A stretch of DNA of 43,227 nucleotides from Flavobacteriales bacterium (GTDB taxonomy: Bacteria; Bacteroidota; Bacteroidia; Flavobacteriales; UBA7430), in NCBI GenBank assembly GCA_022425195.1, contig JAKMFX010000008.1, forward strand, positions 1-43,227, given 5' to 3'. Below are positions 35,043-43,227 of the stretch, piece by piece (position 1 is the first letter of the stretch; each line of letters starts with the position of its first letter). Made by a program: the position numbers and the translations under genes. The notes below the pieces were generated by a model, which was not told where the DNA came from, searched no databases, and saw nothing but the letters and a program-made list of their open reading frames with translations.

Positions 35043-35504
35043 TTAGAGAAGAATCTGTTTGTCTATACTTTGCTCAAGGGAAATGATGGTTTCCGTTCTT
35101 TGTATACCCGTTACCGATTGAATTTCTTCATTCAATACTTGTCTCATGTGTTTGGTGTTTTTACAGCGTATCTTTGCAAAGATGCTATACACACCTGTCG
35201 TGTAATGAGCTTCAACGATTTCAGGGACTTGATTTAATTGTTCAATAACGTCCTTGTAGTTAGACCCTTTTTCCAAGTAAATTCCTAAGAAGGAAGTCAT
35301 GTCGTAACCTAATAACTCATAATTTACATTGAGTCGACTCTTTTTTACAATCCCAGCATCTTCCATCTTTTTCATGCGAACATGAATGGTTCCGGGAGAT
35401 ACAATCAATTTTTTGGCGATTTCAGTGTATGGAGTTTTCGCATCCCGCATTAAAATCCCTAAAATACTTCGATCTATATTGTCGATTTGATAATTTGCAT
35501 CCAT
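35043..35504 (-). CDS. Lrp/AsnC family transcriptional regulator
   Basis: A 153 aa feast/famine regulator. The N-terminal winged helix (IDNIDRSILGILMRDAKTPYTEIAKKLIVSPGTIHVRMKKMEDAGIV in outline, ~7-53) is followed by the alpha-beta ligand-binding/oligomerisation (RAM) domain (~65-150, with VPEIVEAHYTTGVYSIFAKI). Such proteins form octamers, bind amino acids and usually repress their own gene. It is a single gene, convergent with pdhC. The inverted repeat at 35540-35564, against its candidate -7 box, is a plausible autoregulatory site. Confidence 0.92.
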   Translation of the reverse strand: MDANYQIDNIDRSILGILMRDAKTPYTEIAKKLIVSPGTIHVRMKKMEDAGIVKKSRLNVNYELLGYDMTSFLGIYLEKGSNYKDVIEQLNQVPEIVEAHYTTGVYSIFAKIRCKNTKHMRQVLNEEIQSVTGIQRTETIISLEQSIDKQILL

Positions 35505-35589: not shown

Positions 35590-35623
35590 TTTGTAATTTA
35601 AAAGAGATTTGTATTATATTTAC
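35590..35623 (+). promoter_or_regulatory. promoter of tRNA-like gene copy 1
   Basis: TTTG at 35590-35593, 21 bases, then TATATTTAC at 35615-35623. The -7 box and the spacing are the same in copy 2, although the spacer sequences differ. Transcription should start about 15-20 bases before the RNA body. Confidence 0.7.
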
Positions 35624-35644
35624 ATCAGTTAATCACTACAACAC

Positions 35645-35752
35645 TGTGGGGTGATGAAACTGGCAGACATGCCCTCCTGTCTCGAGGGTGAAGATTCTGG
35701 AATAAATCATTAGACTAACCACTTCGTGGAGGTTCGAATCCTTCTCCTACAG
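35645..35752 (+). tRNA. tRNA-like RNA copy 1: class II body, GUC anticodon, very long variable arm
   Basis: The 108-nt segment folds as a full cloverleaf: acceptor TGTGGGG/TCCTACA (U1-A72, two G-U pairs), U8 G9, D stem ATG/CAT with a Leu-like loop AAACTGGCAGA (A14, G18 G19 present), anticodon stem CCCTC/GAGGG, loop CTGTCTC (anticodon GUC at 35679-35681, U37), a 39-nt variable region (35689-35727), T stem GGAGG/CCTTC with loop TTCGAAT, discriminator G. CCA is not encoded. Within the variable region GAAG and TGG can pair with CCA and CTTC around a 4-nt bulge and 18-nt loop. A true tRNA-Asp(GUC) is class I with a 5-nt variable loop, so this is not the normal one. It may be a noncanonical tRNA, an amino-acid donor outside translation, or a regulatory/decoy RNA. 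Confidence 0.75.
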
Positions 35753-35758
35753 CAAACA

Positions 35759-35791
35759 AAATCCTCTTGAGAAATCTCAAGAGGATTTTTT
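35759..35791 (+). terminator. terminator of tRNA-like gene copy 1
   Basis: A 14-bp stem AAATCCTCTTGAGA / TCTCAAGAGGATTT with a 2-base loop and a T tract, starting 6 bases after the RNA body. The stem is identical in copy 2. Confidence 0.9.
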
Positions 35792-36033
35792 AGTTTACAG
35801 ATCGGCTGACTTTATACCCTCTAATAATGTTGTGAATGATTGTTGGGATGACTAAATCTTGACAAAATCAAGGAATAGTCGTTGGCTTAGCCCTATAAAC
35901 CCATAAAATTAGATGATTTGATTTTATCAAACTCATAATTATCAATCGAAATTATGACACATATTTTATTATTGATAATTAACAAAGCTTATTATTACAT
36001 TTTGTGTAAAAATTAAGTCATTTTGTTGATTTT
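35792..36033. other. intergenic spacer between the two tRNA-like genes
   Basis: No gene is visible. The spacer holds an 11-bp AT-rich inverted repeat, TAATTATCAAT (35936-35946) and its complement (35971-35981), and a small CTTGA/TCAAG dyad near 35871. It shows no similarity by eye to the region upstream of copy 1, so the duplication is recognisable only in the RNA, promoter boxes and terminator. Confidence 0.5.
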
Positions 36034-36067
36034 ATTGCAATGAATGCTCCAAGCGTTGTATATTTAC
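36034..36067 (+). promoter_or_regulatory. promoter of tRNA-like gene copy 2
   Basis: ATTG at 36034-36037, 21 bases, then TATATTTAC at 36059-36067: the same -7 box and spacing as copy 1. The 21 bases between box and RNA body are also nearly the same in both copies (CAGTxAATCACxACAACA). Confidence 0.7.
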
Positions 36068-36088
36068 ACCAGTGAATCACAACAACAA

Positions 36089-36197
36089 TGTGGGGTGATG
36101 AAATTGGCAGACATGCCCTCCTGTCTCGAGGGTGAAGATCCTGGAATAAATCTTAGTGACTAACCACTTCGTGGAGGTTCGAATCCTTCTCCTACAG
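36089..36197 (+). tRNA. tRNA-like RNA copy 2: class II body, GUC anticodon, very long variable arm
   Basis: This 109-nt copy is identical to copy 1 in acceptor stem, D stem, anticodon arm (CTGTCTC loop, GUC) and T arm. It differs by C-to-T in the D loop, T-to-C in the variable-arm bulge, and a few changes plus one added base in the variable-arm loop (AATAAATCTTAGTGACTAA, 19 nt). The base before the body is A here and C in copy 1, so the acceptor stem is 7 bp and not an 8-bp tRNA-Sec type. All differences spare the stems, which supports a selected RNA structure. It has its own promoter and terminator. Discriminator G, no encoded CCA. Confidence 0.75.
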
Positions 36198-36203
36198 CAA
36201 GTA

Positions 36204-36236
36204 AAATCCTCTTGAGAAATCTCAAGAGGATTTTTT
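36204..36236 (+). terminator. terminator of tRNA-like gene copy 2
   Basis: The same 14-bp stem and T tract as after copy 1. It ends 15 bases before the convergent lipase-like gene and may weakly stop that transcript too. Confidence 0.9.

Positions 36237-43115: not shown

Positions 43116-43227
<112 letters not shown>

Follow-up and report, generated by a model that had tools for sequence, protein, structure and literature searches.

The window analysed here (the whole stretch of DNA under study, 43,227 nt) comes from the 1.77 Mb, 99% complete genome of a Flavobacteriales bacterium and carries two small RNA genes in tandem. What are these RNAs, and what could a cell use them for? An earlier note described them as tRNA-like RNAs of 108 and 109 nt, each with a TTG-N21-TATATTTAC promoter and an identical 14-bp terminator, and left it to comparison with known families whether they were novel.

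Two tRNA genes with their own promoters and terminators

The features of the locus are as follows.

35043..35504, minus strand: gene for an AsnC-type regulator (153 aa), divergent from the RNA genes (profile, structure match and neighbourhood)
35591..35623, plus strand: promoter of copy 1, TTG, 21 nt, TATATTTAC (sequence, scan and f1 relatives)
35645..35752, plus strand: RNA copy 1, a tRNA with U1-A72, anticodon GUC at 35679-35681 and G73
35689..35727, plus strand: copy 1, long variable domain of 39 nt closed at its base by GAAG/CTTC (supported by alignment and by variable-stem pairs that change on both sides)
35758..35789, plus strand: intrinsic terminator of copy 1, 14 pairs followed by a T-run
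36035..36067, plus strand: promoter of copy 2, TTG, 21 nt, TATATTTAC (sequence, scan and f1 relatives)
36089..36197, plus strand: RNA copy 2, a tRNA like copy 1, anticodon GUC at 36123-36125
36133..36172, plus strand: copy 2, long variable domain of 40 nt
36203..36234, plus strand: intrinsic terminator of copy 2, the same as for copy 1 (sequence)

The lengths given for the two RNAs were exact (35645-35752 and 36089-36197), and the proposed promoter was found upstream of both copies (TTG at 35591-35593 and TATATTTAC at 35615-35623 for copy 1; TTG at 36035-36037 and TATATTTAC at 36059-36067 for copy 2), with both boxes conserved in related f1 genomes. The terminator hairpin is indeed the same in both units (35758-35789 and 36203-36234) and copy 2 is 96% identical to copy 1, while the divergence reported between the units was confirmed outside the RNAs, boxes and terminators. 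Conserved promoters and terminators, together with zero other tRNA genes in the window, support the view that these are stand-alone transcription units. The suggestion that dosage or conversion lies behind the paired copies was borne out on neither count. The second copy is common to three genomes of genus g1, and other lineages carry 1-4 tandem copies with divergent variable domains. Tandem arrays of 3-4 copies with diverged variable domains were seen at L087, L093, L111, L112, L184 and L185, as if copies turn over. At its far end, 43116-43227, the window runs into a 16S rRNA gene (Rfam RF00177), of which it holds the first 107 positions.

The description as small RNA genes thus stood, but each product is a complete tRNA with identity elements for aspartate and for GatCAB and with a conserved AsnC neighbour; the anticodon of both copies, GUC, was missing from the earlier note. 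The window RNA has a 7-bp acceptor stem (TGTGGGG/TCCTACA), a 3-bp D stem, a 5-bp anticodon stem with loop CTGTCTC, a variable region on a 4-bp base stem, a 5-bp T stem with a TTCGAAT loop, and G73. All elements of the tRNA cloverleaf are present (7-bp acceptor, D, anticodon and 5-bp T arms, TTCGA T-loop, U8 and G18G19). The host genome also encodes an ordinary tRNA-Asp with G1-C72, anticodon loop CTGTCAC and A37.

A tRNA family across Bacteroidota and in phages

Other genera, other families and a second class hold homologues, as BLAST and covariance models showed. BLAST matches occurred in 9 of the 11 other sampled f1 genomes and in a second family. A first covariance model separated members (at least 90 bits; 132.5 bits for copy 1 with R1) from tRNA-Leu (about 61 bits or less), and with a second one, at 86 bits or more, 38 of 385 genomes sampled across the phylum proved to be carriers, among them genomes of family f62 from another class. 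Scanning genome contigs for an exact 21-base core gave 48 stretches; their carriers include Cyclobacterium, Reichenbachiella, Marinoscillum, Hymenobacter and many Saprospiraceae, and as many as four copies stand in tandem. Altogether, the family comprises 109 distinct cellular sequences from two Bacteroidota classes. The RNA region was without a family match in Rfam, where searches of the window at gathering and at permissive thresholds gave chance-level matches only, and Rfam 15 gave nothing above the gathering score at the RNA in the window, L096, L100, L152 and L105. ARAGORN called none of 112 long members, the window copies included, and no description of such a tRNA was found in the open-access literature, subscription papers lying outside that scope. 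The RNA family is undescribed and phylum-wide. Two outcomes that the earlier note would have taken as refutation, a lack of homologues and a match to a described RNA family, were not seen.

The shared fold is supported by comparison: in 54 distinct sequences, 24 base pairs are kept in 99.5% of cells, and two-sided changes occur at 10 of the 24 pairs, against 3.4 in shuffles (0/500 shuffles as high). Single variable arms mostly folded no better than shuffles, which leaves this comparison as the basis for the structure. Across the 109 cellular sequences the variable region spans 38-123 nt, with base stems such as GAAG/CTTC, GGAG/CTCC, GTAG/CTAC and others. AYAAA...CUAA occurs in the variable region of nearly all members, and GGGUUGACCAC or a near variant in 36 of the 109. 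Where present, GGGUUGACCAC is near-invariant, for example in the long variable domains of L096:3439-3581 and L152:1501-1675. Together with the internal loop AYAAA/CUAAC, it may form a candidate protein or ligand site.

Several known tRNA types did not accommodate the family: allo-tRNAs need 8/4 or 9/3 acceptor/T stems where the family has 7/5, tRNA-Leu needs A73 and a Leu anticodon where it has G73 (109/109) and GUC, and tRNA-Sec needs an 8-bp acceptor and UCA where it has a 7-bp acceptor and GUC. A 76-nt short relative with a class I variable loop and anticodon loop CTATCTC (L168:1539-1614) occurs in G485, a genome without GlnRS, and ARAGORN calls it tRNA-Asp(atc).

The positions that stay fixed are those that matter for charging and amidation. 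In bacteria the strong Asp determinants are G73, G34, U35, C36 and C38 (PMC9976931); U1-A72 confers amidation by GatCAB and G1-C72 with U20a prevents it (PMC9976931, PMC4206432), genuine tRNA-Asp carrying the amidation-blocking G1-C72 (PMC9976931, PMC4206432, PMC6523644). In a set that includes members found without an exact anticodon-arm requirement, U1-A72, G2-C71, U35, C36, C38 and G73 were present in all 109 distinct cellular sequences and G34 in 107, while positions 32, 33, 37 and 10-25 vary. The family thus has the tRNA-Asp determinants (G34 U35 C36 C38 G73, G2-C71) and, in every cellular member, the U1-A72 expected of a GatCAB substrate, but not the G1-C72, an aid to 3'-end placement in AspRS, or the short variable loop of tRNA-Asp; G10, a minor Asp determinant in E. 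coli, is usually missing as well. The U33 and purine 37 of decoding tRNAs are not maintained: position 37 is a pyrimidine in 106/109 and U33 is kept in 98/109 and lost in 11, against U33 in 49/49 and purine 37 in 48/49 ordinary tRNAs on the loci examined. Judged by sequence, these tRNAs look built for Asp loading and conversion to asparagine by GatCAB, not for codon reading. At L148:1501-1610 and L163:1501-1615, U34 (UUC) or C34 (CUC) replaces G34, so shifts of amino acid identity are possible there.

The family also occurs in phages. A 19-base core pattern matched at least 120 IMG/VR contigs (L226-L345), and all 80 that were examined hold a full member. Genes for the terminase large subunit (52 loci) and the portal protein (34 loci) are recurrent neighbours, and about half of the 80 examined stretches carry other tRNA genes, up to 25. 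Among 64 distinct phage copies, U1-A72 is present in 62 and a UUGACCAC-type motif in 60. GatB, AspRS, AsnRS and AsnC were not found on the phage stretches examined, and blastn found the RNA in no named phage or plasmid. The phage copies fit a supply role, yet they are also the best argument for a role in translation.

AsnC-type neighbours, GatCAB and the enzymes of asparagine synthesis

A divergent AsnC-like gene (about 153 aa) lies 113-213 bp from the RNA at 42 loci in both classes, and was present in 27 of the 37 model-found carrier genomes examined, second class included. The regulator in the window scores 179.9 bits with the NCBIfam AsnC family NF008384 (cut-off 227), where LrpA reaches 76 and Lrp 54, and its best solved structure is E. 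coli AsnC (2cg4, E 1.6e-38). Four RNA-adjacent regulators reach 168-180 bits with NF008384, their best family by about 85-105 bits but below its cut-off of 227; the neighbour is therefore AsnC-type, its equivalence to AsnC being unproven. In E. coli, AsnC activates asnA and this activation is lost with Asn (PMC4482635, PMC8707732), so that the RNA occupies a place like that of an asparagine synthetase gene. Loci of the Saprospiraceae type have no AsnC neighbour, nor do the RNA loci of the five carriers that bear asnA; in carrier genomes having asnA, asnC was not adjacent to it. The divergent intergenic regions examined for an AsnC operator showed no shared motif, their AT-rich inverted repeats differing by lineage. 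No shared metabolic operon emerged, as no neighbour except AsnC recurs widely: a fadD-like ligase, GH113, T9SS proteins and amtB are each confined to certain lineages. In f9 (L013-L016, L069, L106) a gap of 9-12 bp separates the ammonium transporter gene amtB from the RNA behind it, a spacing at which the two may be co-transcribed.

The presence of the RNA goes along with GatB. Among 90 GlnRS-positive genomes of the class in the phylum sample, GatB was found in 32/32 carriers and in 2/58 non-carriers, counts that are phylogenetically non-independent; outside f3 and f6 the figures are 32/32 and 0/10. Shared phylogeny makes Fisher values for this association overstate the evidence, but the pattern within families is independent of them: f17 and f18 contain both carriers and non-carriers, and both families obey the rule, the non-carriers G422, G529, G733, G436 and G523 having no GatB. 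In f3, the two GlnRS-positive non-carriers G118 and G142 match GatB more weakly (E about 1e-105). In a chosen set of 69 genomes with 41 carriers, 38 of the carriers have GatB and 40 have an AsnRS match; of the three without GatB, two are genomes of 66-79% completeness. Most carriers of the phylum sample possess GlnRS, and since GlnRS and AsnRS are already there, GatCAB in GlnRS-positive carriers has no known charging job.

True AsnB shows the opposite distribution, its match pattern occurring in 11 of the 12 GlnRS-positive non-carriers of the chosen set and in none of the 41 carriers. It was confirmed on three proteins from non-carriers (905-958 bits, cut-off 499), whereas seven AsnB-like proteins sampled from carriers scored at most 330 bits and are polysaccharide-type amidotransferases. 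Five carriers have asnA. Absence of AsnA and AsnB alone fails to predict the RNA, because some non-carriers lack both; as a sole predictor it was non-discriminating until true AsnB was split from the polysaccharide-type amidotransferases. In all 20 readable AspRS sequences from carriers, the position of E. coli Leu30 holds Leu, Lys or Phe and never His. His at this position is the signature of a non-discriminating AspRS, and its absence makes the known route through ordinary tRNA-Asn less likely.

A proposed route to asparagine, its alternatives and its relatives

We consider it probable that the family is a tRNA dedicated to asparagine synthesis and apparently not used for decoding, on which Asp would be turned into Asn. 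A discriminating-type AspRS would read the GUC anticodon, C38 and G73 and load aspartate, and U1-A72 would mark the Asp-tRNA for amidation to Asn-tRNA by GatCAB. Given pyrimidine 37, the dispensable U33 and the huge variable domain, the charged product would probably be kept off the ribosome, so that Asn is not placed at Asp codons. Asn might then be freed as an amino acid or passed on, perhaps by way of the conserved variable domain, and AsnRS, found in nearly all carriers examined, could use what is released. The divergent AsnC probably adapts transcription to how much asparagine is present, in the way that E. coli AsnC governs asnA, and the tRNA-based route would replace AsnB. Several observations count against this reading: G10 is mostly missing and G1-C72 replaced, five carriers possess asnA, some non-carriers have neither AsnA nor AsnB, Saprospiraceae-type loci are without AsnC, and the search brought up no release enzyme. 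More tentatively, and here we would not go beyond calling it a real possibility, a tRNA gone from translation may have become a reusable carrier for free asparagine, with biosynthetic-type control, an RNA-coded auxiliary metabolic gene in its phage-carried form, and a structured variable domain whose role is to release the product or withhold it from the ribosome.

Other readings take up parts of the same evidence. Asp might be loaded and amidated as above while the Asn-tRNA serves as a donor for non-ribosomal transfer to the envelope, a peptide or a lipid, which we judge unlikely. The identity elements for Asp and GatCAB would be the same, no release enzyme was found, and staphylococci, which have dedicated non-translating tRNAs for cell-wall synthesis, offer a precedent; but no transferase gene recurs beside the RNA, where the recurrent neighbour is AsnC, and the finding of no true AsnB in carriers fits asparagine supply. 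The kept Asp anticodon loop and the phage copies, some amid many other tRNA genes, could also speak for a translating tRNA, an extra aspartate acceptor for GAC/GAU in special conditions or in phages. This is improbable: the pyrimidine 37 (106/109) and lost U33 (11/109) compare with 1 and 0 of 49 ordinary tRNAs, U1-A72 would turn the charged Asp into a GatCAB substrate, a normal tRNA-Asp is already in the genome, and the GatB association is left unexplained. No more probable is a regulatory RNA or decoy that mimics a tRNA, for example for tRNA-cleaving toxins or queuosine enzymes, which the conserved variable-domain motifs and the phage copies might suggest. U33, part of the queuosine-enzyme recognition sequence, is not conserved, U1-A72 with G73 has no decoy role, and the GatB association again goes unexplained.

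The long arm and G73 raise the case of a class II tRNA charged by SerRS, which reads these two features and ignores the anticodon (PMC7609411), for mistranslation or Ser-tRNA chemistry. We give it very little credence, as an ignored anticodon would not leave U35, C36 and C38 invariant amid varying neighbours and neither GatCAB nor AsnC would be explained. U35, C36, C38 and G73 are also present in tRNA-Glu, which lends something to a glutamine route, with a GluRS substrate amidated to Gln-tRNA, itself a GatCAB product; one member (L148) even has the anticodon UUC. Yet G34 (107/109) and G2-C71 (109/109) clash with the bacterial Glu identity set of U34, U2-A71 and A37 (PMC9976931), most carriers of the phylum sample have GlnRS and the neighbour is AsnC, so this route too seems most improbable.

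If the asparagine-synthesis reading is true, an amino acid is made by a non-decoding tRNA under control of its own end product. This would explain why many Bacteroidota keep GatCAB despite GlnRS and AsnRS, and show how genomes without AsnA or AsnB may obtain asparagine, such genomes being wrongly scored as asparagine auxotrophs. It would also provide an example of phage-carried RNA for metabolism and an Asp/Asn tRNA chassis that tolerates a large insertion at one site.

Among the closest known systems is tRNA-dependent Asn synthesis by a non-discriminating AspRS and GatCAB on tRNA-Asn (Bdellovibrio, Deinococcus, Thermus), which shares the succession of AspRS and GatCAB, has U1-A72 as its amidation signal and coexists with AsnRS and GlnRS (PMC4206432). 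That route uses an ordinary tRNA-Asn whose product goes straight into translation, whereas the family is a separate, apparently non-decoding tRNA with an Asp anticodon, and the AspRS of its carriers is without the non-discriminating signature. With bacterial tRNA-Asp (GUC) it shares G34 U35 C36 and C38 in the anticodon loop, G73 and G2-C71; it differs in U1-A72 instead of G1-C72, pyrimidine 37, a Leu-like 3-bp D stem and a variable region of 38-123 nt. Class II tRNAs (Leu, Ser, Tyr) likewise have the 3-bp D stem with a Leu-like loop, a long variable arm and 7/5 stems, but the family has an aspartate anticodon, G73 (unlike Leu and Tyr) and a much longer, motif-bearing variable domain. A long arm and unusual anticodons, GUC included, are found in allo-tRNAs as well (PMC7609411); their stems are 8/4 or 9/3, in contrast to the canonical 7/5 stems of the family, which has no SerRS-type anticodon freedom. 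Finally, as in E. coli asnC-asnA, an AsnC-type regulator adjoins an asparagine-synthesis function, a proposed one at the RNA loci, where the place of the enzyme is taken by a tRNA.
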